IMG/VR virus record: IMGVR_UViG_3300020469_004478
Coordinates: 1-20,172 of that record
Length of the DNA: 20,172 bases
Source of the DNA: a virus
Strand: one strand, 5' to 3'
Positions 1 through 17,697 of the stretch are shown piece by piece. The notes beneath the pieces are model-generated. The model saw nothing but the letters and a program-made list of their open reading frames with translations. It was not told where the DNA came from and did no database searches. Numbering within the stretch: position 1 is the first letter of the stretch; each line of letters opens with the position of its first letter. Position numbers and translations under genes: made by a program.

Positions 1-1125
1 ATAGAAAAAGTAGGATTAGAAGGTGTTGTTCATATTGAAGAATCTCGTACAGGAGAAACTTACTTAGAAACTGTTGAAGGGTTACAGTTTGAAAGAGGAT
101 ATAAGTCTCCTTATTTTGTTACTAATAATAGTAATATGACTGCCACATTAGACAACCCTCTAATCCTTATTGCGGATCAAAAATTAACCCAAGTTAAAGA
201 ATTATTACCTGTATTAGAAGCGGTATCAGCACAAGCAAAATCATTATTAATCATAGCAGAAGATATTGATAATGAAGCATTGGCAACTCTTATTGTTAAC
301 AAAATGAGAGGTACAATGAAAGTATGTGCTGTAAAAGCACCTGATTTTGGTGATAGACGTAAACTAGTATTAGAAGATATTGCTATCACTACTGGTGGGG
401 TAGTATTTGACAAACAAAAAGGAATGAAGCTTGACAAATTCTCTTGGGAGTGGTTTGGTGAAGCTCGTACTATAACAATAGAAAAAGAACAAACAACAAT
501 TGTAGATGGAAAAGGAGGAATTGAACCAATTGAAGCACGTATTGAAGAGTTACAACAACAAATCGATAAAGCAACAACGCCGTTCGAAACAGAAAAACTT
601 CAAGAAAGACTCGCGAAATTCACAGGAGGAGTAGCGATAATTCATGTAGGTGGAAACACTGAAACCGAAATGAAAGAGAAAAAAGATAGAGTTGATGATG
701 CATTACATGCAACAAAAGCTGCTATTGAAGAGGGAATAATTCCTGGAGGTGGAACAGCATTATTATATGCTTCATCAGGTTTAGAGGGTAAAACAACGGG
801 TGCAAAAATTGTAATACAAGCTTGTTCTAAACCCTTCAATCAAATTTTAGTTAATGCAGGATTTGATAAAGTTAAAGGTCAAATACTAGCAGATAATCTA
901 ACCAACTCAGGTAATGATGCTTGGGCGGGGTTTGATATTAAAACTGATAAAGTTGTTAATATGAAAGAAGCTGGTATTATTGATCCAACTAAAGTAGCTA
1001 GAACAGCTTTAGAAAATGCAGCATCAGTAGCGGGTACAGTATTGTTAACAGAATGTACTGTAGTAGATGAACCAAGTGAAGAATCAACTCAACAACAAAT
1101 TGACCCAATGATGGGTATGATGTAA
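1..1125 (+). CDS. groEL: GroEL-type chaperonin, 5'-truncated by window edge
   Basis: The reading frame is open from base 1 and ends at TAA 1123-1125, giving 374 visible residues. About 160 N-terminal residues of a roughly 545-residue GroEL lie outside the window; the first ATG in view (136) is internal. The visible part covers the apical domain and the returning intermediate and equatorial domains. It includes the hallmarks EGLQFERGYKSPYFV, LLIIAEDI, KAPDFGDRR, KLQERLAKFTGGVA, the ATP-hydrolysis segment VDDALHAT with its aspartate, the GGG nucleotide loop and a DPTKVARTALENAASVAG block. The C-terminus is a short Met/Gly tail (MMGMM). Family role: ATP-driven protein folding in the cytoplasm as a double ring with a GroES-type lid. 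No groES is seen here. Phage copies are usually thought to fold virion proteins. It sits just upstream of small phage genes and the clamp loader, so it is phage-carried rather than from a host groESL operon. Confidence 0.97.
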   Translation: MEKVGLEGVVHIEESRTGETYLETVEGLQFERGYKSPYFVTNNSNMTATLDNPLILIADQKLTQVKELLPVLEAVSAQAKSLLIIAEDIDNEALATLIVNKMRGTMKVCAVKAPDFGDRRKLVLEDIAITTGGVVFDKQKGMKLDKFSWEWFGEARTITIEKEQTTIVDGKGGIEPIEARIEELQQQIDKATTPFETEKLQERLAKFTGGVAIIHVGGNTETEMKEKKDRVDDALHATKAAIEEGIIPGGGTALLYASSGLEGKTTGAKIVIQACSKPFNQILVNAGFDKVKGQILADNLTNSGNDAWAGFDIKTDKVVNMKEAGIIDPTKVARTALENAASVAGTVLLTECTVVDEPSEESTQQQIDPMMGMM

Positions 1126-4846: not shown

Positions 4847-5047
4847 ATGACAAATAAAAAACCAATGACACTAACGAGTGTCAAAGTCAAAAGCGATTTA
4901 TTCGAGAATTTTAAGATTGAATGTGTAAAACGTAAATTTTCTTTTCAAAAACTTGCAGACCGTAGCTTGTTTTTATATCTTACAGATGAGGATTTTCGTA
5001 AACAAATTACTAATCAAATTAATCTCGATATAAAAAATGATGAATAA
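4847..5047 (+). CDS. Ribbon-helix-helix (CopG/Arc-like) DNA-binding protein, 66 aa
   Basis: ATG 4847 to TAA 5045-5047. A predicted beta strand (TLTSVKVKSDLFENFK) is followed by two helices (ECVKRKFSFQKLADRSLFLY and a DEDFRKQI segment), which is the ribbon-helix-helix layout. Such proteins bind DNA as dimers through the paired strands. The gene is first after a 41-base gap that may hold a promoter, and it overlaps the first glycosyltransferase by 11 bp. It may regulate the island or act as a general phage transcription regulator; the sequence does not show its target. Family confidence is good, role unknown. Confidence 0.8.
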   Translation: MTNKKPMTLTSVKVKSDLFENFKIECVKRKFSFQKLADRSLFLYLTDEDFRKQITNQINLDIKNDE

Positions 5048-6479
5048 AGACTTTAAGTATATCCCTAAAGATAAAAGGAAAAAAATACTCTTAATATGTG
5101 ATGATATTAGAGTACATTCAGGAGTTGCTACTGTAGCTAAAGAAATTGTGGTACATACAGCTCAACATTTTAATTGGGTACAAATAGCTGGATCAATTAA
5201 TCATCCTGAAAAAAATAAAAAATTAGATTTATCAGAAAGTACTAATAATCTATCTGGATTAAAGGATTCATCTGTAGTTTTATACCCTGCTGATGGTTAT
5301 GGTAGTACTCAAATGATAAGAGAAATAATAAAGATGGAAAAACCCGATGCTTTATTTTTATTTACCGATCCAAGGTATTTTATGAATATTTGGAATATGG
5401 AACAAGAAATTAGAAAAAATATTCCAATTTCTTATTTAAATATTTGGGATGATTACCCAGCCCCAATGTATAATAGACCTTATTATGAAGCATGTGACTT
5501 ATTAATGGGTATATCTAAACAAACAGTTAATATTAATAAATTAGTGTTAAAAGGTCATGAGGGTAATAGAATATTTAGGTATATTCCTCATGGAAAAGAT
5601 GTTACTAATTTCTTTCCAATTAAGGATAATGATTTAGATTATATTAATTTTAAATCATCTTTATTTAGGGGTAAAAATCCTAAATTTACTTTATTTTTTA
5701 ATTCAAGAAATATTAGACGTAAACAAATCCCAGATGCAATGATGGCTTTTAGAGGATTTTTAGATTCTCTATCTAAAGAAGAAGCTAAGGAATGTTATAT
5801 GGTTTTGAAAACAGAAAAAGTAACAGATGCTGGTACTGATTTACCTAAAGTAAAAGAATATCTTTTTGATGAAAATTATAAAAATAATATAATTTTTATA
5901 GACCAAAAACTATCAGAACAGCAATTAAATTGGTTATACAATATGGCAGATGCTCATATTTTACTTACTTCTAATGAAGGTTGGGGGTTAGCAAATACTG
6001 AAGCAATGTTAGCTGGTACACCAATTATAGCTAATGTTACGGGTGGGATGCAAGATCAAATGAGATTTGTAGATGAAAATGGAAAATGGTTTACGCCAAG
6101 TGCTAATGTACCTTCTAACCATAGGGGTACTTATAAAGAACATGGTGAATGGGCATTCCCAGTTTATCCAACATCAAGATCAATTCAAGGTTCTCCTCCA
6201 ACCCCCTATATTTTTGATGATAGATGTAGATGGGAAGATGCTATGGAAAGAATAAAAGAATGTTATAACTTAGGAAGAAAAGAATTAAAACTAAAAGGAT
6301 TAAAAGGAAGAGAATGGGCATTAAGTAAGGAAGCAGGTTTTAATTCTAAACACCAGGCAGAAAGAGTTATTGAAGCTTTAGATACATTATTTAATACTTG
6401 GGAACCAAGAGAAAAATATGAAATAATTAATGTTAATAATTATAAAGGTAAATTTTTAAATCATAAAATTGTATATTAA
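5037..6479 (+). CDS. Glycosyltransferase, GT4/GT1-like (GT-B fold)
   Basis: 480 residues. The N-terminal Rossmann half starts at KKILLICDDIRVHSGVA with a glycine-rich acceptor loop. The C-terminal donor domain shows FNSRNIRRKQIPDAM (about 221-235), then NWLYNMADAHILLTSNEGWG and the retaining E-x7-E motif (Glu314, Glu322) in NEGWGLANTEAMLAGTPII. Family reaction: transfer of a sugar from a nucleotide-sugar donor to an acceptor, retaining the anomer. Donor and acceptor cannot be told from sequence. No membrane segment is seen, so the protein is probably cytoplasmic. It begins with ATGATG at 5037, inside the end of the RHH gene, and its stop overlaps the next start by one base. It is the first of two tandem GT4-like genes. 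Confidence 0.92.
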   Translation: MMNKDFKYIPKDKRKKILLICDDIRVHSGVATVAKEIVVHTAQHFNWVQIAGSINHPEKNKKLDLSESTNNLSGLKDSSVVLYPADGYGSTQMIREIIKMEKPDALFLFTDPRYFMNIWNMEQEIRKNIPISYLNIWDDYPAPMYNRPYYEACDLLMGISKQTVNINKLVLKGHEGNRIFRYIPHGKDVTNFFPIKDNDLDYINFKSSLFRGKNPKFTLFFNSRNIRRKQIPDAMMAFRGFLDSLSKEEAKECYMVLKTEKVTDAGTDLPKVKEYLFDENYKNNIIFIDQKLSEQQLNWLYNMADAHILLTSNEGWGLANTEAMLAGTPIIANVTGGMQDQMRFVDENGKWFTPSANVPSNHRGTYKEHGEWAFPVYPTSRSIQGSPPTPYIFDDRCRWEDAMERIKECYNLGRKELKLKGLKGREWALSKEAGFNSKHQAERVIEALDTLFNTWEPREKYEIINVNNYKGKFLNHKIVY

Positions 6480-7759
6480 TGAATAAACCACGTTTTGTAA
6501 TAAGTTGCCCTTTTGATACCTATTCAGGTTATGGGGCACGTAGTCGTGATATAGTTAAAGCTATAATAGAACTAGATAAATATGAAGTTCAACTTTTACC
6601 TCAAAGATGGGGGGAAACTTCATGGGGATTTTGTAAAGATCATCCTGAGTGGGAATTTTTACTAAAATATACTGTCCCTCAAGATTGGCAACAATTTCAA
6701 CCTGAAATTTGGTCTCAAATTACTATCCCAAATGAATTCCAACCTATAGGAAAGTATAATATTGGTATAACAGCTGGAATTGAATCTACCGCTTGCAAAC
6801 CAGAATGGATTGAAGGATTAAATAGAATGGATATAAATTGGGTTTCTTCTAAGTTTGCTAAAGATACATTTGAAAAAATGGCTTATGATAAAAAAGACAA
6901 AAGAACAAACCAAGTAGTACAACAGGTAAAATTAAATAAACCTATCGAAGTTGTATTTGAAGGGGTAGATGTAACAAAGTATCAACCTATAAAACAATCC
7001 GAAATTAAAACTATTAATTTAAAAGATATTAAAGAAGAATTTTGTTATCTATTTGTTGGTCATTGGATGCAGGGTGAATTTGGTCACGATAGAAAAAATG
7101 TAGGTGTATTAGTTAAGTCTTTTTATGATGCCTTTAGACATAAAGTAGGTAAAAAACCTGCTTTAATATTAAAAGCGTCAACAGGAGTTGCTTCTTATTT
7201 AAGTAGAGATTCTATTTTAGATAAAATTAAAAATATAAAAGATAGTTATGGAGATGCTAGATTACCTAATATTTATTTATTAAATGGAGAATTTGATGAT
7301 TCTGAAATAAATGAATTGTATAACCATTCTAAAGTAAAAGCAATGGTTAGTTTTACTAAAGGAGAAGGATTTGGTCGTCCTTTATTAGAATTTGGATTAA
7401 CAGGAAAACCTATCATTGCATCAGGTTGGAGTGGTCATATTGATTTTTTACACCCTGAATATAATGTATTACTATCTGGAAACTTAGAAAATGTACATTC
7501 TTCTGCTGCTAATAATTGGTTAATTAAGGAATCACAATGGTTTCAAGTAAACCAAAAACAGGGCATTAGTGCTTTAAAACAAGTTTATAAAAGTTATAAA
7601 CAATATTTAAAAAGATCTAAAAAGCAAAGACATCATGTTAAAACTAATTTTAGTTGGGATAAAATGAAAGAATTAGTAGGAAATATTCTAGATAAAAATG
7701 TTCCTAAATTACCAACACAGATAAAATTAGATCTACCCAAACTTAAAAAGATAAAATAA
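6479..7759 (+). CDS. Glycosyltransferase, GT4-like (GT-B fold)
   Basis: 426 residues. The N-terminus FVISCPFDTYSGYGARSRDI holds the acceptor-side glycine loop. Mid-protein WVSSKFAKDTFEKM and GVDVTKYQPI mark the domain linker. The donor half shows LFVGHWMQ with a following basic stretch, then the E-x7-E motif (Glu296, Glu304) within KGEGFGRPLLEFGLTGKPII. It is predicted to be a retaining, soluble nucleotide-sugar-dependent transferase. It is only distantly similar to its upstream neighbour, so it is probably a separate acquisition or an old duplication. It is joined to both neighbours by 1-base overlaps (TAATG). Substrates are not predictable. Confidence 0.9.
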   Translation: MNKPRFVISCPFDTYSGYGARSRDIVKAIIELDKYEVQLLPQRWGETSWGFCKDHPEWEFLLKYTVPQDWQQFQPEIWSQITIPNEFQPIGKYNIGITAGIESTACKPEWIEGLNRMDINWVSSKFAKDTFEKMAYDKKDKRTNQVVQQVKLNKPIEVVFEGVDVTKYQPIKQSEIKTINLKDIKEEFCYLFVGHWMQGEFGHDRKNVGVLVKSFYDAFRHKVGKKPALILKASTGVASYLSRDSILDKIKNIKDSYGDARLPNIYLLNGEFDDSEINELYNHSKVKAMVSFTKGEGFGRPLLEFGLTGKPIIASGWSGHIDFLHPEYNVLLSGNLENVHSSAANNWLIKESQWFQVNQKQGISALKQVYKSYKQYLKRSKKQRHHVKTNFSWDKMKELVGNILDKNVPKLPTQIKLDLPKLKKIK

Positions 7760-8202
7760 TGAACCTAGATACAATAATAGATTGTCCTAAATCAGGAGGG
7801 GATCTTTGTTATAAAACAGAAATAAATAAAGATATAACTAATTTTCTTAGTTTATCATGTGGGTTTTGGACTAACACATTAATGAAAAAAGACTCAGAAT
7901 TTTATAATGAACAAATTAGTACTTTACCTGAAATATACAAAGATATAGCTTGGAAAGATCCAAAAACAGAATTAATTTGGATCCCAAATACAATTAATAT
8001 ACAAGATAAAGGAATGATATTTGCTGGAGGAAATAATGCTAAAGAATGGGCTTGGTCTGCTGTAAAAGCTATACCCTTAGGTAAAGATGATAAAGCTAAA
8101 GTAGAGGGCCAAACACATAAGATGGATATGTCAACAATGAAGTCATTTAAAGAACGTGACTATATAGATGCTCTTTCGTATATTGGAGTCTTACCAGAAT
8201 AA
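7759..8202 (+). CDS. Hypothetical protein, 147 aa, within glycosyltransferase cluster
   Basis: The gene is linked by a 1-base overlap to the upstream glycosyltransferase and ends one base before the epimerase start. The protein begins with CPKSGGDLCYKTEI, which looks like half of a zinc-ribbon knuckle with unusual spacing (Cys9, Cys17). A further CGFWTN segment (Cys34) follows, then tryptophan-rich blocks (IAWKDPKTELIWIPNTINI, AKEWAWSAVKAIPLG) and a DMSTMKSF segment. No known catalytic motif is seen. It may be a conserved phage protein stranded within the glycan island rather than a sugar enzyme. Its last codons contain the putative promoter for the next gene. Confidence 0.83.
   Translation: MNLDTIIDCPKSGGDLCYKTEINKDITNFLSLSCGFWTNTLMKKDSEFYNEQISTLPEIYKDIAWKDPKTELIWIPNTINIQDKGMIFAGGNNAKEWAWSAVKAIPLGKDDKAKVEGQTHKMDMSTMKSFKERDYIDALSYIGVLPE
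8155..8186 (+). promoter_or_regulatory. Putative phage promoter before the epimerase gene
   Basis: TTTCGTATATTGG at 8174-8186, with CGTGA (8155-8159) at the same upstream distance as the TTG boxes of the sister sites. It lies within the end of the 147-aa gene. Predicted transcription would begin about 10-15 bases before the ATG at 8204, giving a very short leader. Confidence 0.48.
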
Positions 8203-8203
8203 T

Positions 8204-9043
8204 ATGAAAGTACTAGTAACAGGAGGTGCAGGATTTATAGGGTCTAATTTAGTAAAAAGGTTATTAAATGAAGAACATGAAGTCCATTCTTTAGATAATT
8301 ATTCTACAGGTAATACTGAAGTAAAAGGATGTAAATATTTTAGAGGTGATATTACAGAAATAGATACAATTCATAAAGATTATGATATTATATTTCATTT
8401 AGCGGCTCAATCAAGAGTACAACCATCATTTGATAACCCATCTGAAACTTATAGAGTAAACGTAACAGGAACAGAAGCTGTATGTAAATTTGCGCATAAT
8501 ATAGGAGCTAAAATAGTATATGCAGGATCATCATCAAAACACCATAACCCAGCTACTTCACCATATGCTATGTACAAATATTTAGGTGAAGGTGTTTGTA
8601 AATTATATAAAGAATCATTTAATTTAGAAATTGAAATTTGTAGATTTTATAATGTATATGGCCCTGGAGAAGCATTAGATGAAGTAAATGGTAATGTAAT
8701 TGGTATTTGGAGGTCTAAAATTAATAGGGGAGCAGATATTGAAATAGTTGGTGATGGTAAACAAAGAAGAGATTTTACTCATGTAAATGATATTGTAGAT
8801 GGTTTATATAAAGTGGGAACCATGGGAATAGAACATGAAGATGCTTGGGAATTAGGAACGGGTATAAATTATTCTATTATTGAACTAGCAAAAATGTTTC
8901 AAAATAAATTTAATTGTAAAATATCTTACCTTAAAGACCAACCGGGCAATTATAGAGCTACGCTCTGTGAAAGTAAAGATGCTACTAACATTTTAGGTTG
9001 GAAGCCTTTTGATAAATTAGAGGATCATATAAAAAGTTTATGA
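8204..9043 (+). CDS. NAD-dependent nucleotide-sugar epimerase/dehydratase (extended SDR)
   Basis: 279 residues from ATG 8204, one base after the previous stop. The open frame extends back to 8168, but MKVLVTGGAGFIG is the normal SDR N-terminus, so 8204 is chosen. Motifs: TGGAGFIG NAD-binding loop (6-13), FHLAAQSRVQPSF (64-76), serine cluster GSSSKHHNP (108-116), catalytic YAMYK (Tyr121, Lys125), RFYNVYGPGE (147-156) and GDGKQRRDFTHVNDI (183-197). The family interconverts UDP- or dTDP-sugars, most often by 4-epimerisation. The loop between the serine cluster and the tyrosine is about a dozen residues shorter than in GalE, making a compact version. It supplies a donor for the surrounding transferases; the exact sugar is unknown. 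Confidence 0.92.
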   Translation: MKVLVTGGAGFIGSNLVKRLLNEEHEVHSLDNYSTGNTEVKGCKYFRGDITEIDTIHKDYDIIFHLAAQSRVQPSFDNPSETYRVNVTGTEAVCKFAHNIGAKIVYAGSSSKHHNPATSPYAMYKYLGEGVCKLYKESFNLEIEICRFYNVYGPGEALDEVNGNVIGIWRSKINRGADIEIVGDGKQRRDFTHVNDIVDGLYKVGTMGIEHEDAWELGTGINYSIIELAKMFQNKFNCKISYLKDQPGNYRATLCESKDATNILGWKPFDKLEDHIKSL

Positions 9044-9663
9044 AAATAAGTTATGCAATAACAGTATGTAATGAATACGAAGAGATTCAAAAACTAATAT
9101 CTACTCTTATGTTAAATATAAGAGAAGAAGATGAAGTTATAGTATTATTTGATAAACAATCAGGTACAGCAGAAGTTTGGGATTATTTAGTTGGATTACA
9201 AACTCAGGACTTAATTAAGGCCTATGCTAAATCTTTTAAACATCATTTTGCTGATTGGAAAAACCAACTTACCTCACTATGTAGTGGAGATTATATATTT
9301 CAAATAGACGCTGACGAAATACCAGATAAACAGTTAGTAATTTCATTACCTAAAATAATAGAAGGTAATCCTGATAATGAAGTTTATTTAGTACCTAGAG
9401 TTAATACGGTAGAAGGTTTAACTAATAAACATATTAAAAAATGGGGTTGGAGAGTAGATGATAAGGGTTGGGTTAATTGGCCTGATTATCAATGGAGGAT
9501 TTGGAAAAACAAACCAGAAATTAAATGGATAAATAAAGTACATGAAAAATTAGAGGGGTTTAATACTTATGCTTCATTACCTCCTATGAAAGAATTAGCA
9601 TTATATCACCCTAAAGAAATTCAAAGACAAGAGAAACAAAACGAATATTATAATACACTATAA
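9040..9663 (+). CDS. Glycosyltransferase family 2 (GT-A fold)
   Basis: 207 residues. The ATG overlaps the epimerase stop by 4 bp (ATGA). N-terminal ISYAITVCNEYEEI is the GT2 nucleotide-binding start. The metal-binding acidic motif is QIDADEIP (Asp90, Asp92), preceded by HHFADWKNQL and followed by tryptophan-rich acceptor-side blocks (KKWGWRVDD, WPDYQWRIWKN) and KVHEKLEG. It resembles the short WaaE/KdtX-like GT2 enzymes that add hexoses to lipopolysaccharide cores. Inverting, nucleotide-sugar dependent, cytoplasmic. The precise acceptor cannot be read from the sequence. Confidence 0.9.
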   Translation: MKISYAITVCNEYEEIQKLISTLMLNIREEDEVIVLFDKQSGTAEVWDYLVGLQTQDLIKAYAKSFKHHFADWKNQLTSLCSGDYIFQIDADEIPDKQLVISLPKIIEGNPDNEVYLVPRVNTVEGLTNKHIKKWGWRVDDKGWVNWPDYQWRIWKNKPEIKWINKVHEKLEGFNTYASLPPMKELALYHPKEIQRQEKQNEYYNTL

Positions 9664-10404
9664 ATGAAAAATAATTTAGAAAAAATAGGAAGTTTATGGG
9701 TTGGGGATAAATTATCTAATTTAGAAATTCTTTCAATTAAATCTTTTATATTAAATGGTCATCCATACCATTTGCATGTTTATAACGATATAAAAAACAT
9801 ACCAGAAGGAGTAATCCTTGAAGATGCTAATAAAATAGTACCAGAAAAAGATATTTTTTACGCTCCAGGTAGTAATGGTAGACCTGGATCTTTGGGGGCA
9901 TTTTCAGATTATTTTAGATTTAAAATGATGCAAGAAACCGGAGGGTATTGGGTTGATACTGATATAGTTTGTATACGTCCATTTGATTTTAAAGACCCTT
10001 ATGTATTTGCATCAGAAAATACACATAGAGGAGAACAAGAAGCAACTTCAGGGATACAAAAATTTCCTAAAGATTGTGATGCTGTAAAATATTGTGTAGA
10101 ATATTGTGATTCATTTGAAGATAAAAATAATATTAGATGGGGAGATATAGGTCCTTCTTTAGTTAGAAATGCTATCAAAAAATACAACCTTCAAAAATAT
10201 ATTAAAGATTATAAAATTTTTATGCCAGTTAATTGGTGGGAAGCTAATGAATTTTTTAACCCTAATCCTACATTTCAAATCACCCCTGATACTTATTCTA
10301 TCCATTTGTGGAATGATGTATGGAGTAGTAATGGTATAGATAAAAATGGAGACTTTCACTCTAATAGCATTTACGAACAATTAAAAAAATGGGTAAACAT
10401 ATGA
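9664..10404 (+). CDS. Glycosyltransferase family 32 / alpha-1,4-GT-like
   Basis: 246 residues, starting directly after the previous stop. The N-terminus (IGSLWVGDKLSNLEILSIKS, then NGHPYHLHVY) and the DXD motif in TGGYWVDTDIVCIRPFDF (Asp98, Asp100) are the signature of GT32 DXD sugar-binding proteins. The C-terminal part around GDIGPSLVRNAIKKY and the Trp/His-rich SIHLWNDVW segment resembles the alpha-1,4-glycosyltransferase conserved region. Retaining enzymes of this group transfer hexoses to glycolipids or polysaccharides. It overlaps the start of the dioxygenase gene by 4 bp (or 16 bp with the alternative start there). Confidence 0.9.
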   Translation: MKNNLEKIGSLWVGDKLSNLEILSIKSFILNGHPYHLHVYNDIKNIPEGVILEDANKIVPEKDIFYAPGSNGRPGSLGAFSDYFRFKMMQETGGYWVDTDIVCIRPFDFKDPYVFASENTHRGEQEATSGIQKFPKDCDAVKYCVEYCDSFEDKNNIRWGDIGPSLVRNAIKKYNLQKYIKDYKIFMPVNWWEANEFFNPNPTFQITPDTYSIHLWNDVWSSNGIDKNGDFHSNSIYEQLKKWVNI

Positions 10405-11249
10405 ATATAGATAATAATAATCAACTTTTAAAAAAAATTACTTGTATTAACTATAATAAAAAAGATATATTAAGTATATTACAAAAGTATGGAATGTGTA
10501 TATTACCCAATTATGTAGCAGATAAAATTTGTGATGTTGCAAAGGAAAAATGTATTAAAAGAGTTGAGGTTAAAGAAGATGTAGATTTTGAAGATGGGTC
10601 TTATAGAAGATTTAATGGTAAGAATGTTCCTCCTAAAGGTAGAGGACAAGATAAAAGAGTATATCATGCTGATTGTTTTAGCAACGAAATGGCAGATTTT
10701 AAAAATGATAAATTTATCCAATCTATATGTGAATCCTATATGAGTAAAGAAGAATCTCCTTACTCAGTCCATGTTCAAATATATGATAGAAATAATATTC
10801 CTAATGATTTAACTAGGGGACCCCATCTTGATTCTTTTGAAACAAACACTTTCAAAGCATTTCTATATTTAGATAATGTTACATTAGATGATGGTCCTAC
10901 TTCTTATATTCTAGAAACTCATAAAGATAAAACTTTAAGAGAATCAAAACAAAAGGGAAATCCTGGGCCTAAATACCTTAACAAACCTGAAAATAAATCT
11001 ACTCATCCTACTAATTTTTCATTAGAAGAATTAGGTCAAGAAAGAATTAATAATTGGGTAAAAGTAACTGGAAATAAAGGTGATGTAATTTTGTTTGATA
11101 CTTGGGGGGTTCATTGTGGTACTAATATTTCTTCTAATGGAGATAGACATGTTATTGTAAATTATTATAAACAAGGTAAAGATTTACCCCGTTCTAATTT
11201 TGGTTATGATTATAAAATTGATGAAAAGAATAGTGGAAATTTTAAATGA
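10401..11249 (+). CDS. PhyH-family Fe(II)/2-oxoglutarate dioxygenase
   Basis: 282 residues from ATG 10401, which gives the 4-bp ATGA overlap used repeatedly in this operon. An upstream in-frame ATG at 10389 (16-bp overlap) is possible and would add four residues. The phytanoyl-CoA dioxygenase-type core is visible: HxD iron ligands in RGPHLDSFETNTFKAFLYL (His142, Asp144), DGPTSYILETHK, and the distal histidine plus 2OG-binding arginine in LFDTWGVHCGTN (His238) and GDRHVIVNYY (Arg249). All iron and co-substrate residues are present, so an active oxygenase (hydroxylation) is likely. The substrate is unknown; its place among sugar genes suggests a glycan or lipid-linked intermediate. Confidence 0.88.
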   Translation: MNIDNNNQLLKKITCINYNKKDILSILQKYGMCILPNYVADKICDVAKEKCIKRVEVKEDVDFEDGSYRRFNGKNVPPKGRGQDKRVYHADCFSNEMADFKNDKFIQSICESYMSKEESPYSVHVQIYDRNNIPNDLTRGPHLDSFETNTFKAFLYLDNVTLDDGPTSYILETHKDKTLRESKQKGNPGPKYLNKPENKSTHPTNFSLEELGQERINNWVKVTGNKGDVILFDTWGVHCGTNISSNGDRHVIVNYYKQGKDLPRSNFGYDYKIDEKNSGNFK

Positions 11250-12418
11250 AACAACCTAAAATAAACATAGTAATATTTGCTGCAGACGCAAAACATTTAA
11301 GTTATTTGAATAATGTCATAACAGTAGCATCAAATAATAATTTAAATATATTTGCTATGATATGCCAAGATACAAAATTAAAGTATCCTATTCATCATAA
11401 AAATAGATTTCAAATACTAACTAATTGTAACGAAACAAATTCTACTTTTTCAGAAACTTTAGGAATTAATTTACCTTTTAAACCAGATTGGTTAATTGTA
11501 AGTAGAGAAAGGTGGGACCCTGAAACGTCTATAATTAAAGAATTTAAACATAAATTTAGTTCTAAAATAGGTTTAGTTGAACCTAACTCAGCTATGATTA
11601 ATAGTATTACAGGTTTTTTAGAATCCGAATCTAAAAATCGTTTTATAAATGAAATAGATGTATTTTTTGACCATAGCAACTTTATTAAATCTCAACGTAA
11701 AATATTAGGTTTTAAGGGAAATACGGTAGTAGTAGGTAACCCAAAACATGATGTTAATTTAGATGTTAAAAAGCAAGATCTTCAACATTTAAAAGATTAT
11801 TATAAAATTGATCCTAATAAAAAACAAGTCCTATTTTTTACTCTTCAAAATAAATACAGACATAAATTATTTAAAAAATTTAAAGAATTTAAATTCAATC
11901 ATCCTGAATATCAATACTTTATTAAACCATATCCCGGGGAACCTTTTGATCCTTTATTTCATAAAGATTATTTCCCCAAGTTTTTTATGGAAGGAGTAAC
12001 ACCCATTTTAGAAGAAACACACATTTGGGGAATGTATAATTTATGTGATATTCATGTGGGATGTTTTAGTTCAGTAATGTATTCTTCTTTTTATTTAAAA
12101 AAAGAAATTTATGAATACTCAAAAGAAATAGGTTCACATAAAAATTTAGAATCTAATTTTGATATATTAAATAATTCTGGGGGTCATGAAGAATTATTAG
12201 ATTTATGGTTAAGGTCATTTAACATTAATATAGAAGAATTTAAAAATTTAACTTTAAAAGAAAAAATATTACCTAAATTAGAAAATAATCAAAAAGTTTG
12301 GAAAAGCCTAGAAGATTTAGTATCTTACAGGGAAGATATATTAAAACTGTATGATGAATTTAATGATAAACAGGCATCAGAGCGTATAATCGATTATATA
12401 TTAAATTATGAAAAATAA
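11246..12418 (+). CDS. GT-B-like protein of unknown specificity
   Basis: 390 residues, ATGA overlap with the dioxygenase. The layout looks like two Rossmann-type halves: INIVIFAADAKHLSYLNNVI at the N-terminus, DWLIVSRERWDPE, then VVVGNPKHDV as domain linker, KQVLFFTLQNKYRHKLFKKF, YFIKPYPGE, and a late CDIHVGCFSSVMYSSFYLKKEIY segment. The last block resembles the donor-site serine segment of CDP-glycerol/capsule-type transferases and NeuC-like enzymes. I cannot assign a reaction. It is adjacent to pseB and so could act in the nonulosonic acid pathway (which lacks a visible PseG) or be the transferase that uses the CMP-sugar. Both are inference. Confidence 0.75.
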   Translation: MKQPKINIVIFAADAKHLSYLNNVITVASNNNLNIFAMICQDTKLKYPIHHKNRFQILTNCNETNSTFSETLGINLPFKPDWLIVSRERWDPETSIIKEFKHKFSSKIGLVEPNSAMINSITGFLESESKNRFINEIDVFFDHSNFIKSQRKILGFKGNTVVVGNPKHDVNLDVKKQDLQHLKDYYKIDPNKKQVLFFTLQNKYRHKLFKKFKEFKFNHPEYQYFIKPYPGEPFDPLFHKDYFPKFFMEGVTPILEETHIWGMYNLCDIHVGCFSSVMYSSFYLKKEIYEYSKEIGSHKNLESNFDILNNSGGHEELLDLWLRSFNINIEEFKNLTLKEKILPKLENNQKVWKSLEDLVSYREDILKLYDEFNDKQASERIIDYILNYEK

Positions 12419-13373
12419 AACTATATTAATTACGGGGGGAACAGGATCTTTGGGTAAGGCTCTTATTAAAAAATTAAAAATTAATAATAAAATTATTGTT
12501 TATAGTCGAGATGAGGGTAAACAAGCTTTATTATTTGGTAATAACCCTGATATTATTAGGGTAATAGGAGATATTAGAGATTATAATAAATTAGATGTAA
12601 CATTACAACGTCATTCCCCTGACTATGTAATTCATACTGCTGCTCTAAAAAGAATTGATGATATGGAGTTTCACCCTGATGAATGTGTTAAAACTAATAT
12701 TGATGGGTCTGAAAATGTAGCAAAAGCTTCATTAAAAAATAATGTTAAAAAATGTATTCTTGTTTCTACAGATAAGGCATGTCAACCTGTAAATGTTTAT
12801 GGGTCTAGTAAATTTATTGCTGAGAGAATTTTTACAAATTATGATTATTATTCTACTAGTACAATCTTTTCATCTGTAAGATATGGAAATGTAATTGCAT
12901 CACGGGGTTCATTTGTTCCACTATTTATAGATTGGATTAAACAAAATAAAACTATAAGAGTAACATCTGAAGAAATGACTCGTTTTTTGTTTACTTTAGA
13001 TGATGCAGTAGATACAGTATTAGGGACATTAGAAAATGCTACAGGGGGAGAAGTATTTGTTCCTCAAATTAATTCTTATACTTTACCTATTTGTATTAAA
13101 GCTCTAGAATATATTACAAATAAAAAAGCAACTACTAAAGTTATAGGATTAAGACCAGGAGAAAAATTGCATGAAGATATGTTAGCAGAAACAGAACTAC
13201 CTTTTACATACCAAGTACCTAATATAAATCTTTTACAAATCAGACCCCAATATACTAATAAGTCATATCAAAATTGGGATAAATATAAAGGTCCCCATTT
13301 TAACTCTAAATTATGGGTTAAAGAAAATATAGATGAATTAATAGAATTAATTAATAAGGGTTTAATGTGTTAA
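12408..13373 (+). CDS. pseB: UDP-GlcNAc 4,6-dehydratase (inverting), PseB-type
   Basis: 321 residues. First step of pseudaminic acid synthesis: UDP-GlcNAc to the 4-keto-6-deoxy-L-arabino-hexulose. NADP-binding loop TGGTGSLG (9-16), HTAALKRIDDMEFHPDECVK, and the catalytic set STDKACQPVNVYGSSK: Asp122, Lys123 and Tyr131 lie at the same relative spacing as in known PseB enzymes. RYGNVIASRGSFVPLF, EEMTRFLFTLDDAV and GLRPGEKLHEDM complete the family signature. The protein is the short soluble type without the membrane part of PglF/WbpM-like dehydratases, which favours the pseudaminic over the legionaminic or bacillosamine branch. It overlaps the upstream gene by 11 bp and is followed after 3 bases by the aminotransferase. 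Confidence 0.93.
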   Translation: MKNKTILITGGTGSLGKALIKKLKINNKIIVYSRDEGKQALLFGNNPDIIRVIGDIRDYNKLDVTLQRHSPDYVIHTAALKRIDDMEFHPDECVKTNIDGSENVAKASLKNNVKKCILVSTDKACQPVNVYGSSKFIAERIFTNYDYYSTSTIFSSVRYGNVIASRGSFVPLFIDWIKQNKTIRVTSEEMTRFLFTLDDAVDTVLGTLENATGGEVFVPQINSYTLPICIKALEYITNKKATTKVIGLRPGEKLHEDMLAETELPFTYQVPNINLLQIRPQYTNKSYQNWDKYKGPHFNSKLWVKENIDELIELINKGLMC

Positions 13374-13376
13374 TAT

Positions 13377-14354
13377 ATGAAAGTATTTGAATCAAAATTT
13401 ACTAAAAAAGAATTAGATTTATTAAATCCTATAATTCAAAACGGTCAATTAGGTTTTGGCCCTAATGTATTAGAATTTGAAAAACAATTTACACCCTTTT
13501 CTAATAAACAATACAACGTAGCCACTAATTCAGCAAGTGCTTCTGCTTTTATATTATTTTCTTATTTAAAGGATAAGTATGGGGAATGTGATGTCTATAC
13601 TCCCTCATTAGGTTTTACTTCCCCAGCATGGGCTGCTAAACATTTTGGACATAATATTATATGGGTTGATGTAAATGATAATTTATTGTTTGATATAGAT
13701 GATTATTACAATAAAAGAAAAATTAGATGCGAAAGATATAGTGATAATAACGTAAAACCTGTATTAATGCCCATTTTATATGGAGGTGTTAGTAATATAC
13801 CGGGTTTTGATGATATTAAAGGAGGTTACAATGAAATAGTAATAGTAGACTCGGCCCATTGTGTAACACCTACTATAAAAAATAATTTTATCTTTTTTTC
13901 TTTTCATCCTTACAAACCTATATGTTCAAGTGATGGGGGAATGATCTCAACAAATAATCTGGAGGCATCCGAATATTTTAAATCTTATAGAAATTTTGGA
14001 AGAAAAAATAATAATGAATCCTATGATATTATTCAAGAAGGATTTAAATTTTATATGAATAATTTAAATGCTACTATTGCTTTAATTAGTTTAAAAAAAT
14101 ACAAAAAAGATTTAGAAATTAGGAAAAATAATTATTCTAAATTAGATAATGTTTTATTTCATGATAATAATTCATCTTATTATTTTGCTACAAGATTAGA
14201 TTTTAATGCTAATAAATTTAATAAAAAAAACCAATTAGCACGACATTATCCATTATTACATAAAACAAAGTATTTTAATAATAACAATAAACTACCTAAT
14301 ACAGAACTATTATATAATAAAATAATTAATTTACCTTTATGGACACATTTGTAA
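13377..14354 (+). CDS. pseC: PLP-dependent sugar aminotransferase (DegT/PseC-type), short C-terminus
   Basis: 325 residues; relatives usually have about 370-390. Expected reaction: C4 amination of the PseB product using glutamate and PLP. Visible: FGPNVLEFEKQF, the phosphate-loop region NSASASAFIL, YTPSLGFTSPAWAA, the PLP aspartate in VIVDSAHC (Asp158, His161) and the Schiff-base lysine in FFSFHPYKPICSSDGGMIS (Lys180). The C-terminal HYPLLHKTKYF and LPLWTHL match the family, but the protein stops right at LPLWTHL. It lacks the final helix of about 15-25 residues because the neuB-type gene begins in another frame at 14339 (16-bp overlap). It also lacks part of the middle. Identification as PseC relies partly on the pseB neighbour. 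Confidence 0.87.
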   Translation: MKVFESKFTKKELDLLNPIIQNGQLGFGPNVLEFEKQFTPFSNKQYNVATNSASASAFILFSYLKDKYGECDVYTPSLGFTSPAWAAKHFGHNIIWVDVNDNLLFDIDDYYNKRKIRCERYSDNNVKPVLMPILYGGVSNIPGFDDIKGGYNEIVIVDSAHCVTPTIKNNFIFFSFHPYKPICSSDGGMISTNNLEASEYFKSYRNFGRKNNNESYDIIQEGFKFYMNNLNATIALISLKKYKKDLEIRKNNYSKLDNVLFHDNNSSYYFATRLDFNANKFNKKNQLARHYPLLHKTKYFNNNNKLPNTELLYNKIINLPLWTHL

Positions 14355-15319
14355 TAGCAGAAGCAGGGGCTAATCACAATAAGAATTTTAATCAAGCCTT
14401 GAAATTAATAGACGTAGCTAAAGAATCTGGAGCAAGTGCTGTAAAATTTCAAACATATTCATCTGAAACTTTATATAGCAAAAACACACCAGATTTTGCG
14501 GGGTATAAAAATATAAATCAATTAATAAAAGATATAGAATTACCTCGTGAATGGCAAAAAGACTTAAAACAATATTGTGATGAAATAAATATTGAGTTTA
14601 TGTCTACACCTTTTGATGAGCAGGCAGTAGATGAATTAGTAAATTTAGGAGTCAAAAGACTAAAAATATCAGGATTTGAATCTACAGATTGGAGATTTGT
14701 GGATATGGTAGCTTCAACTGGTTTGCCTTTAATTATATCTATTGGTATAGGGTTTGAATTTAACAAAATGGGGTATATTTTAGATATAGTAGAAAATTAC
14801 GGTAATGATTTAACTCTTTTACACTGTAATAATGCTTACCCAACCCCTATAGAGGATATAAATTTAAATAATATAAAAGCTTTACAAGGATTTAAAAATG
14901 TTAAGGCTGTAGGATTATCAGACCACACAACTTCAATTTTAACCCCGGCTTTAGCTGTTGCTATTGGAGCAACTACAATTGAAAAACATTTTACGTTATA
15001 CAAAAATTCCCCTGGTCCTGATCATGCATTTGCATTAGAACCAGATGAATTAAAAAGTATGGTAGATAATATAAAAATTGCAGAAATTATGGTAGGTAGT
15101 AATAAAGATAAATATAGTAAATCTGAGTTAGATTTTACTAAAGCTAGAAGATCAATAGTAGCAAAGTCAAATATAAAAATAGGAGATTTATTAACTACGG
15201 ATAATATAACTACAAAAAGACCTTATATAAAGAATAATGTGCCTGCCTCAGAATGGTTCAATATATTAGGTAAAAAATCTACTAAAAATTACAAATTTGA
15301 TGAATTTATAAAATGGTAA
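14339..15319 (+). CDS. pseI: Nonulosonic acid synthase (NeuB/PseI family)
   Basis: 326 residues. Condenses phosphoenolpyruvate with a six-carbon 2,4-diacetamido or N-acetyl sugar to a nine-carbon acid. N-terminal TIM-barrel motifs: VIAEAGANHNKNFNQALKLI (Glu8, His13), SAVKFQTYSSETL (Lys36, Gln38), FMSTPFDEQAVDEL, LKISGFESTDW, GLSDHT (192-197), EKHFTL and SPGPDHAFALEPDEL (225-237). The C-terminal part from about residue 268 (ARRSIVAKSNIKIGDLLT) is the SAF/antifreeze-like domain. The usual PGxGI-type loop there reads RPYIKNNVPASEW, a deviation near the substrate end. Context with pseB/pseC-like genes points to PseI rather than sialic acid NeuB, but sequence alone does not settle it. Confidence 0.9.
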   Translation: MDTFVIAEAGANHNKNFNQALKLIDVAKESGASAVKFQTYSSETLYSKNTPDFAGYKNINQLIKDIELPREWQKDLKQYCDEINIEFMSTPFDEQAVDELVNLGVKRLKISGFESTDWRFVDMVASTGLPLIISIGIGFEFNKMGYILDIVENYGNDLTLLHCNNAYPTPIEDINLNNIKALQGFKNVKAVGLSDHTTSILTPALAVAIGATTIEKHFTLYKNSPGPDHAFALEPDELKSMVDNIKIAEIMVGSNKDKYSKSELDFTKARRSIVAKSNIKIGDLLTTDNITTKRPYIKNNVPASEWFNILGKKSTKNYKFDEFIKW

Positions 15320-15843
15320 AAGGAAAAAAAATAATATTAACTCGCGTTGAAAAAGAAAACTTAGAACAGTTACGTAAATGGAGAAATATTCCTGAATTAA
15401 GAAAATATTTTAGGGAACATAAAATTATAGGAATAGATAATCAATTAAAATGGTATGAAAATAGGGTATTAGGAGATTCTAACCAATACAATTTTGAAAT
15501 AAGAACACAAGAAAATAAATTAATAGGTCATTGTGGTTTATATTATATAAATTGGATAAGTAGAACTGGAGAATTTGGGATTTACATAGGAGATAATGAT
15601 TATAGAAATGGAGGGTATGGTTCTGATGCCCTAAGAACTTTAATTAAATATGGTTTTGAAGATCTTAATTTAAATAGAATTTGGTGTGAAGTATATAGTA
15701 ATAATGATGCATTAGACGTTTATAAACATATTGGATTTGTATATGAAGGAAAAATGAGAGAAAGTTATTATAATGAAGGTAAATATTGGGATTCTTACAT
15801 ACTAGGAATGTTAAAAAAAGAATTTAATGAAAGATATAAATGA
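15313..15843 (+). CDS. pseH: GNAT N-acetyltransferase, PseH-like
   Basis: 176 residues. The GNAT fold of the RimJ/RimL-like type is shown by the acetyl-CoA loop YRNGGYGSDALRTL (Arg98 to Gly103), the preceding strand EFGIYIGDN, and C-terminal NRIWCEVYSNNDALDVYKHIGF followed by EGKMRESYYNEGKYWDSY. In pseudaminic synthesis PseH acetylates the 4-amino group of the PseC product with acetyl-CoA. Placement between the synthase and the cytidylyltransferase supports that role. It overlaps the upstream gene by 7 bp and the downstream one by 17 bp. The family call is firm; substrate identity is inferred from neighbours. Confidence 0.87.
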   Translation: MVKGKKIILTRVEKENLEQLRKWRNIPELRKYFREHKIIGIDNQLKWYENRVLGDSNQYNFEIRTQENKLIGHCGLYYINWISRTGEFGIYIGDNDYRNGGYGSDALRTLIKYGFEDLNLNRIWCEVYSNNDALDVYKHIGFVYEGKMRESYYNEGKYWDSYILGMLKKEFNERYK

Positions 15844-16522
15844 CATTTGTATAGTAGTACAAGCTAGGTTAGGCTCACAACGTATCCCTAGAAAAATGAT
15901 AAAATCCTTTGCAGGGACTACTTTAATTGATATTCTTTTAAATAAACTTGTTAGTTTAAACTCTACAGATTATTCCAAAGTTTACTTTTGTGCCCATGAA
16001 CAAGAACTTTTAGATATTGCTACTAACTATCCGATTAACATTATAAAACGTAGTAAGGCATCAGCAAATGAAGAAAAAAATATAAAAATTTTATATGAAT
16101 GGTCTAAGGAAATACCAACTAAACATATAGTAATGGTATCAGCTTGTAACCCATTATTACAGATAAACACTATAGATCAATTTATTTACCAATACCAAAA
16201 TTCACACAAAGAAGGTGCTATTAGTGTTTATGAATCTAAAAATTACTTTTGGAATTCAAAAGGTAAAATGTTGAATAAATGGCCTAAAGGATTTACTTCT
16301 ATGAATACTAAATTTGTAGAACCAACTAAAGTAGCAGCCCATTGCATGTATGGGTCTAGAGTAGATTTAATTAAAGAAGGTAATTGGGTTACAAATAAAC
16401 TACCATATGAACCTGAACTAATAAATATGCCCGAAATTGAAGCTTTTGATATTGATGAACCTTGGCAATTTAAAGTTGCCGAACAATTGTATAAAAATAA
16501 AAAAGATTTATGGATAAAATAA
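15827..16522 (+). CDS. pseF: CMP-nonulosonate cytidylyltransferase (PseF/NeuA-like)
   Basis: 231 residues. Activates the nine-carbon acid as its CMP derivative. The CTP-binding signature VQARLGSQRIPRKMIKSFAG (about 11-30) is complete. Later VSACNPLLQINTIDQFI corresponds to the substrate-contact region with a Pro-Leu after Asn, and EAFDIDEPWQFKVAEQLY at the C-terminus is the usual closing motif with metal-binding aspartates. It overlaps the acetyltransferase by 17 bp and the following GT2 by 13 bp. The product is the expected donor for a nonulosonic acid transferase; none of the neighbouring transferases can be assigned that job with certainty. Confidence 0.88.
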   Translation: MKDINDICIVVQARLGSQRIPRKMIKSFAGTTLIDILLNKLVSLNSTDYSKVYFCAHEQELLDIATNYPINIIKRSKASANEEKNIKILYEWSKEIPTKHIVMVSACNPLLQINTIDQFIYQYQNSHKEGAISVYESKNYFWNSKGKMLNKWPKGFTSMNTKFVEPTKVAAHCMYGSRVDLIKEGNWVTNKLPYEPELINMPEIEAFDIDEPWQFKVAEQLYKNKKDLWIK

Positions 16523-17697
16523 CATTTTGTATACCAAGTAAGTCAAATTTACGTTACCTAAAAACTTGTATTCCTTCTATTAGAAAAAACGCTTGTAGGA
16601 ATGACCATGATGTTATAATATTTGTTGACTCAGATGAAGATGGTACAGTTGAATGGTTAGAACAAGTAAAAGATGAATATAATTTAACTTACTACATAAA
16701 TCCTAAATTAGGGAAAGAATTATATGGTATAGGAAGAGCTTATGATTACTGTATTGAAAAATCTACCACTGATATCTTTATGATATTCCACGCCGATATG
16801 ATGTTAGGTAAAGATGCTGATTTAAAAGCATTTAATCATTTAAAAGAAAAAACTGTAGTGTGTGCTACAAGAATCGAACCTCCTTTACATCCAAATAATG
16901 GAGAAAAAATATTATTAGATTTTGGAATATGGCCTGAAGAATTTAAAGAAGATGATTTTAATAAATATGTAGAAGAACATAAAGAATTAGATAAAATAAC
17001 TGAAGGTATATTTGCTCCCTGGATGATGTACAAGCAAGAATTCATGGATATAGGGGGCCATGATCCTATAATGCATTCTTGTAGAGAGGACTCAGATGTA
17101 TTTAATAGAATGTCACTTGCTAGATTTAAATTTATACAACCTTGGAATAGTTTAGTTTATCACCTTACTGGTAGAGGAGCAGGTAGCTTTGATGGAGATG
17201 AAGAAAGACATAAAAAATGGCAGGCTGATATGAATAAGTCAACTTTAGAATTTATTCGTAAATGGGGTCAAAATGTTAATCATACTTCTTTAATGAAACC
17301 TATAGTTTCACCTAAATATAATATTGGAATTATATTAAAAAACGGTAATGAAACTTTAGTTAAAATATTAGAACCATGGGCTGATACACTTTATGTTGAT
17401 GAAGGTAATGTTCCTACTTTAATCAAAAATTATATTAATAGTGAACAACCTAATACCGCATTTGATTTATTTGATAGATTAAAACCCTATGATAATGAAA
17501 AAAATAGTGAAATATTAGTAGAAGTAGATGGAACCAGTTTTGACCAACAAGATTTTAAAATCTTAACCCAATTACCAGATATAATTAAAGATAGTGGTAG
17601 TATTGGAAGATTTAAATTAGGAAATATAATTGTAGAGATTATTCAAATGAACGAATATCAAGATAAATTAATTAAAATAAATTTGGATACTACATAA
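16510..17697 (+). CDS. Glycosyltransferase family 2 with extra C-terminal domain
   Basis: 395 residues. The GT-A part spans roughly 1-265: ITFCIPSKSNLRYLKTCIPS, FVDSDEDGTVEWL, the metal motif MIFHADMMLG (Asp96), a GIFAPWMMY segment and the catalytic-base region GGHDPIMHSCREDSDVFNRM (Glu193, Asp194), then VYHLTGRGAGSF. Residues about 268-395 form a further domain that I do not recognise: it starts at SPKYNIGIILKNGNETLVKI and includes ILVEVDGTSFDQQDF and GNIIVEIIQMN. Inverting, nucleotide-sugar dependent. It is the last gene of the island; the next gene follows a 44-base gap with a promoter-like site. Confidence 0.88.
   Translation: MDKITFCIPSKSNLRYLKTCIPSIRKNACRNDHDVIIFVDSDEDGTVEWLEQVKDEYNLTYYINPKLGKELYGIGRAYDYCIEKSTTDIFMIFHADMMLGKDADLKAFNHLKEKTVVCATRIEPPLHPNNGEKILLDFGIWPEEFKEDDFNKYVEEHKELDKITEGIFAPWMMYKQEFMDIGGHDPIMHSCREDSDVFNRMSLARFKFIQPWNSLVYHLTGRGAGSFDGDEERHKKWQADMNKSTLEFIRKWGQNVNHTSLMKPIVSPKYNIGIILKNGNETLVKILEPWADTLYVDEGNVPTLIKNYINSEQPNTAFDLFDRLKPYDNEKNSEILVEVDGTSFDQQDFKILTQLPDIIKDSGSIGRFKLGNIIVEIIQMNEYQDKLIKINLDTT

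Follow-up and report, generated by a model that had tools for sequence, protein, structure and literature searches.

A predicted nonulosonic acid synthesis module in a hypervariable glycan island of Immutovirus-related T4-like phages

The IMG/VR virus record IMGVR_UViG_3300020469_004478 (20,172 nt; the whole of this 20 kb fragment is referred to here as the window) contains an island of co-directional sugar-related genes at approximately 5037-17697, and within it five consecutive genes at 12408-16522 are of the type that directs synthesis of nonulosonic acids (NulOs). NulOs are sialic acid-like sugars that determine how hosts, phages and immune systems recognise what bears them. The five genes, noted in a first-pass annotation, are confirmed as plus strand open reading frames, and all have family matches above the Pfam gathering scores. 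They encode a PseB-type UDP-GlcNAc 4,6-dehydratase of the 5-inverting branch (12408-13373; Polysacc_synt_2, 269.6 bits), a DegT/DnrJ/EryC1 sugar aminotransferase with a predicted PseC-like role (13377-14354; PF01041, 127 bits), a NeuB-family nonulosonate synthase with a SAF domain (14339-15319; PF03102, 240 bits), a GNAT N-acyltransferase with a predicted PseH-like role (15313-15843; Acetyltransf_3, 74.5 bits) and a NeuA/PseF-type cytidylyltransferase predicted to be a CMP-nonulosonate synthetase (15827-16522; CTP_transf_3, PF02348, 53.9 bits). The genes had been described as overlapping, which holds for three of the four junctions; the dehydratase and aminotransferase genes are 3 nt apart.

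Catalytic residues had been reported as visible in each product, and these indeed show no or almost no variation across 35-56 homologues. The dehydratase D122, K123 and the lysine of its YxxxK motif are present in 48/48 phage homologues, the Schiff-base K180 and D158 of the DegT protein in 35/35 copies, and ten positions of the synthase active site, among them the arginine of the SAF domain, in 52/52 copies (numbered by reference to Neisseria meningitidis NeuB). The dehydratase scores 277 bits with the PseB model (TIGR03589) versus 218 with FnlA and 41 with LegB, and matches Helicobacter pylori PseB (2gn4) at E 2e-64, identifying it as an inverting UDP-GlcNAc 4,6-dehydratase at the family level. 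The DegT protein scores higher with PseC (94 bits) than with LegC (65 bits), both far below cut-off. The best PDB matches of the synthase are a pseudaminic acid (Pse) synthase (8h2c), SpsE (1vli) and NeuB (1xuu). The GNAT protein is closest among PDB entries to spermidine acetyltransferases, with PseH (4xpk) matched at 2e-11. The cytidylyltransferase has the weakest assignment of the five; its family profile matches CMP-NeuAc synthetase (1qwj) at 1.7e-12, ahead of KdsB, and its AlphaFold2 (AF2) model (predicted local distance difference test, pLDDT, 93) has CMP-sialate, Kdn or Pse synthetases as its first 14 PDB fold matches (template modelling score, TM, 0.67-0.80). This confirms it as being of the CMP-NulO synthetase type, with no specificity for Pse indicated. 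Together with the synthase, which has both active site and SAF domain, it gives the combination expected of a NulO pathway in general.

None of the enzymes reaches an NCBIfam equivalog cut-off. The scores (with cut-offs) are 277 (408) for PseB, 94 (424) for PseC, 86.7 (93.1) for PseH (TIGR03585) and 43 (206) for PseF, and the synthase scores higher as NeuB_NnaB (305; cut-off 400) than as PseI (266; cut-off 340). For these reasons the specific names PseC, PseI and PseF are not supported, and the looser '-like' naming used in the first-pass annotation is correct.

A near-complete, phage-borne NulO pathway had been proposed, and this is borne out by a much larger set of relatives. Scanning IMG/VR with the synthase alignment identifies at least 57 contigs with this NeuB (52-93% identity), and among 51 non-redundant loci it is linked to PseB in 48, to an aminotransferase in 48 and to a cytidylyltransferase in 47; the three loci without PseB are cut contigs. 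At the sequence level the genes for these five functions are linked, intact and co-inherited, the linkage holding in some 50 phages. The suggestion that such a pathway is uncommon in phages does not fit these numbers, nor the tabulation of neuB reads in 8/9 viromes by Roux et al. (2013; PMC3877843), who recorded neuB and neuA reads in uncontaminated viromes. That study dealt with reads only, without genomes, pathway context, module swapping or the missing hydrolase discussed below, and the phage sets described here offer a genomic source for those reads. We found no report of a phage NulO pathway in the open-access literature, subscription journals lying outside the search. Phage-encoded O-acetyltransferases acting on the capsule NulO of Acinetobacter baumannii (PMC6586298) likewise alter surface NulO chemistry through a phage gene but are single tailoring enzymes acting on a host NulO rather than a whole set of biosynthetic genes carried by a T4-like phage.

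The T4-like replication genes mentioned in the first-pass annotation are also present. To the left of the island there is a partial GroEL gene, T4-type clamp-loader subunit genes (phrog_168 and phrog_225) and an exonuclease gene, and to its right an HNH gene and a lysozyme-like gene. Longer relatives encode a T4-type portal, terminase, capsid and tail sheath, and the NulO set occupies the same place in many contigs, including phage contigs of 128-160 kb. The capsid is 57% identical to that of the isolated Flavobacterium phage vB_FspM_immuto (Immutovirus, NC_055915), in which a similar island has the same borders (35-61% identity): PD-(D/E)XK, two GT4 genes and a GT2 gene on the left, and GT2, o177 and HNH on the right. 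In the window the left border is formed by a GT4-type glycosyltransferase (5037-6479, plus strand; PF00534, 42 bits; 52% identity with immuto) and a GT4-like glycosyltransferase (6479-7759, plus strand; PF00534 sub-threshold; 51% identity), followed by a conserved GT2 glycosyltransferase (9040-9663, plus strand; PF00535; 61% identity with immuto, which lacks the NulO genes). The right border is a second GT2 glycosyltransferase (16510-17697, plus strand; PF00535, 44 bits), with 65-68% identity among relatives and 44% with immuto. The interior of the immuto island differs, encoding WecE-like aminotransferases, a pilin-glycosylation-like protein and an epimerase in place of the NulO set, with no NeuB match. 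Because the borders are the same and the sugar genes are not, the island is a conserved slot with exchangeable content, of which the NulO set is one example. New here is the recognition of this slot as the glycan island, hypervariable in content, of T4-type phages that resemble Immutovirus.

The NulO set itself is also variable. The aminotransferase is of the DegT type in 35/51 loci and class III in 13/51, with both together in none; all 13 class III genes are accompanied by a Gfo/Idh oxidoreductase, as is DegT in a single locus. The acyl enzyme is either GNAT or a formyltransferase encoded at the same place, sometimes with an additional PIG-L deacetylase. Mapped onto the NeuB tree, the aminotransferase type switches at least seven times (five of these forced by well-supported branches) and the acyl-enzyme type at least 13 times. 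One locus, L106, is 90% identical to the window at the DNA level over 5279-13373 and 95% over 16435-16957, with PseB (99%) and GT (97%) conserved, and between these flanks (L106 8122-11026) DegT gives way to an RmlD-like reductase and the encoded NeuB and GNAT are 34% and 28% identical to those of the window; the cytidylyltransferase is 56% identical, its gene retaining the 3' end. This modular exchange of amino and acyl enzymes, as read from the gene families, is new here, and with the synthases swapped as well, different lineages probably make different NulOs. So marked a variation suggests that difference itself is selected, as might be expected of a receptor or of a coat that is recognised.

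Two further features of these loci are noted. In L006 (4661-8004) a class III aminotransferase resembling glutamate-1-semialdehyde aminomutase replaces DegT, as a fixed pair with Gfo/Idh. Separately, a second NeuB-like protein without a SAF domain (NeuB2) is encoded in 22/51 loci (for example L005 5207-6037), in some of them next to a gene of the YhcH type or to an additional cytidylyltransferase gene. On the tree it stands as a clade apart, joined there by relatives from Marine virus AG-345-L05 and from a 484 kb uncultured phage.

Which NulO is made was addressed through synthase phylogeny, using bacterial PseI references labelled by scores above the cut-off, LegI and NeuB references labelled by a nearby NeuC/LegG gene, with or without a LegB gene above cut-off in the genome, and three solved structures. 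The phage synthases fall within none of these families, forming a separate deep clade (100/100) outside the labelled PseI (100/100), LegI, NeuB and SpsE sequences. The synthase therefore lends no support to the name PseI, and the specifically pseudaminic identity given in the first-pass annotation is not sustained, PseC and PseF scores also being far under their cut-offs. Scanning a genome collection with the phage NeuB yields one distant Helicobacter gene (34% identity) and nothing else, and thus no bacterial donor was found in that collection. Because the dehydratase lies on the PseB/FnlA side and not with LegB, our best guess is that the product is an L-configured, pseudaminic-like sugar. 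In the legionaminic and neuraminic pathways (LegB-C-H-G-I-F and NeuC-B-A) the NeuB-type synthase and NeuA-type cytidylyltransferase are shared with the phage set, but the phage dehydratase is PseB-type, the synthase is outside both clades, and neither NeuC nor LegG is found in the 50 records searched.

Among the closest known systems is the PseB-C-H-G-I-F pathway of Campylobacter jejuni and H. pylori, with which the phage set has five enzyme families and roles in common. The phage genes could encode an authentic pseudaminic acid pathway equivalent to the PseBCFHI enzymes of these bacteria, with PseG provided by the host, as the PseB- and PseH-like scores and the best PDB match of the synthase (to C. 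jejuni Pse synthase) would suggest. We regard this as unlikely, given the position of the synthase outside the PseI clade, its higher score as NeuB_NnaB, the very weak PseC and PseF scores, and module swapping that implies several products. The phage set differs further in lacking PseG, in residing in a T4-like phage genome, and in having an aminotransferase and an acyltransferase that are interchangeable with unrelated families.

NeuB-type synthases require a free sugar, from which UDP has been removed by PseG, NeuC or LegG. The first-pass annotation implied a set lacking PseG, and there is none in the window record. Searches of 50 whole records give no match to either PseG (TIGR03590; E ≤ 0.01) or NeuC/LegG (TIGR03568; E 0.01). 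The PseG model has matches in 21/21 Helicobacteraceae genomes, these being under the cut-off, with some weak matches MurG-like. Two close relatives (140 and 128 kb) jointly span what is apparently a circle of about 178 kb, a two-phage composite made by coordinates only, and contain no hydrolase. At the level of recognisable sequence, this systematic absence of a known UDP-sugar hydrolase from phage NulO sets is new here, and the most likely source of the UDP-removing step is the host. Possibly hydrolase-less clusters also occur in cells, since two loci on Azospirillum and Halorussus plasmids (L170 and L173) have NeuB clustered either with a formyltransferase and a Gfo/Idh gene or with genes for DegT and an SDR, and the 6 kb around them contain nothing annotated as PseG or NeuC.

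Several considerations weigh against a single pathway with a host-supplied step. No enzyme passes an equivalog cut-off, so that every substrate has to be inferred; the contigs are fragments, and a hydrolase gene could conceivably lie at a distance. The missing hydrolase may also mean that the synthase acts on another free sugar, with PseB, DegT and GNAT forming a separate UDP-sugar branch. In such an arrangement these three would make a directly transferred UDP-diamino-trideoxy-hexose, while NeuB and the cytidylyltransferase would make a CMP-NulO from another free aldose of the host, and PseG would not be needed. The lack of a hydrolase in 50 records is consistent with this, as are L112 and L116, where the stretch read has the gene o11246 (described below), NeuB2 and a cytidylyltransferase but no PseB. 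Even so, we think two branches quite unlikely: the DegT and NeuB genes overlap and co-occur with PseB in 48/51 loci, the acyl-enzyme gene adjoins NeuB, and in L106 the amino, synthase, acyl and CTP genes are exchanged as a single block.

The gene immediately upstream of the five (o11246; 11246-12418, plus strand) encodes a GT-B fold protein that is a candidate CMP-NulO transferase and, with less likelihood, the absent hydrolase. Its AF2 model (pLDDT 91) has fold matches (TM about 0.55) to UDP-GlcNAc 2-epimerases/NeuC and to CDP-polyol polymerases of the TagF type, and PF04464 is matched at 21.8 bits, just under the cut-off of 22.1. A PDB profile search gives no match, and a structure search against viral models recovers mostly generic glycosyltransferases. 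The gene is present in 21/51 loci, in every locus not cut off adjoining NeuB or the second NeuB, and it also occurs in loci without PseB in the stretch read. Profile comparison with PseG gives no match (probability 0.07). If the protein were a hidden hydrolase of UDP-sugars, or an epimerase that hydrolyses them, the window pathway would be complete and could yield a new NulO stereoisomer; the fold matches to UDP-GlcNAc 2-epimerases and NeuC, a NeuC profile probability of 83 over 323 columns (with low column confidence) and the constant proximity to a NulO synthase gene point in this direction. Its likeness to the TagF CDP-polyol transferases is equal, however, and a hydrolase role appears distinctly improbable; because the gene is in so few loci, and also where no PseB is seen, a CMP-NulO transferase is the better fit and the reading that we favour.

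That the NulO genes are functionless host DNA, acquired by chance or as a binning artefact, is scarcely credible: although the window, at 20 kb, is only a fragment, the present results already contradict it, with T4-type genes flanking the set, the same placement in many contigs including those of 128-160 kb, intact catalytic residues and a phage-specific NeuB clade.

We therefore consider it probable, from gene content and conservation, that the five genes are a NulO module within the hypervariable glycan island of an Immutovirus-related T4-like phage, making CMP-NulO for a phage-specified glycan. In the proposed pathway UDP-GlcNAc would be converted by the dehydratase to UDP-4-keto-6-deoxy-L-HexNAc, then to the 4-amino sugar by the aminotransferase and to the 4-N-acyl sugar by the N-acyltransferase. 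UDP would be lost through the action of a hydrolase, most likely from the host, as no PseG or NeuC is recognisable in the phage. The free sugar and phosphoenolpyruvate would be condensed by the synthase to an L-configured di-N-acyl NulO of the pseudaminic type, which the cytidylyltransferase would activate to CMP-NulO for use by the island transferases, the product of 11246-12418 being the best candidate. The glycan may act as a variable decoration on virions or on the surface of infected cells.

Tentatively, and with more doubt than confidence, we extend this to propose that T4-like aquatic phages maintain an exchangeable NulO synthesis system that does not depend on a canonical UDP-sugar hydrolase of their own, using instead a hidden hydrolase, a new substrate or an obligate host enzyme, and recombine amino, acyl and synthase modules to generate many distinct and possibly undescribed NulOs as a variable virion or cell coat. 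The homologous non-NulO island of isolated Flavobacterium phages, the systematic absence of the hydrolase and the exchange of modules were all outside the first-pass account. A phage population carrying and reshuffling a NulO pathway would offer new NulO enzymes and might pass such genes between bacteria, and two questions become testable: what purpose sugars made by phages serve, and whether NulOs can be synthesised without PseG or NeuC.

The remaining island genes, all on the plus strand, encode an NAD-dependent sugar epimerase/dehydratase of the SDR family (8168-9043; PF01370, 159 bits; 42% identity with immuto) and two cassette-specific proteins, a DXD-type glycosyltransferase (9664-10404; PF04572, 33 bits; PF04488, 21.7 bits) and a PhyH-type Fe/2OG dioxygenase that is a tailoring candidate (10389-11249; PF05721, 35 bits). 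Pfam-level annotation recognises no flippase, polymerase or lipid-carrier transferase in the island, which fits, weakly, with cytoplasmic assembly of the glycan on DNA or on some part of the virion, although export could also rely on genes of the host. The T4-late-promoter-like sequence TATAAATA occurs four times, below the mean of 10.8 expected by chance; sigma-70 and terminator scans give no excess above shuffled sequences, and tRNA and Rfam scans no match. PhyH-type genes also recur in the islands of other loci. Finally, the GroEL gene (window 1-1125) adjoins the T4-type clamp-loader genes, and its product is about 59% identical to immuto GroEL, the gene for which has GroES beside it.

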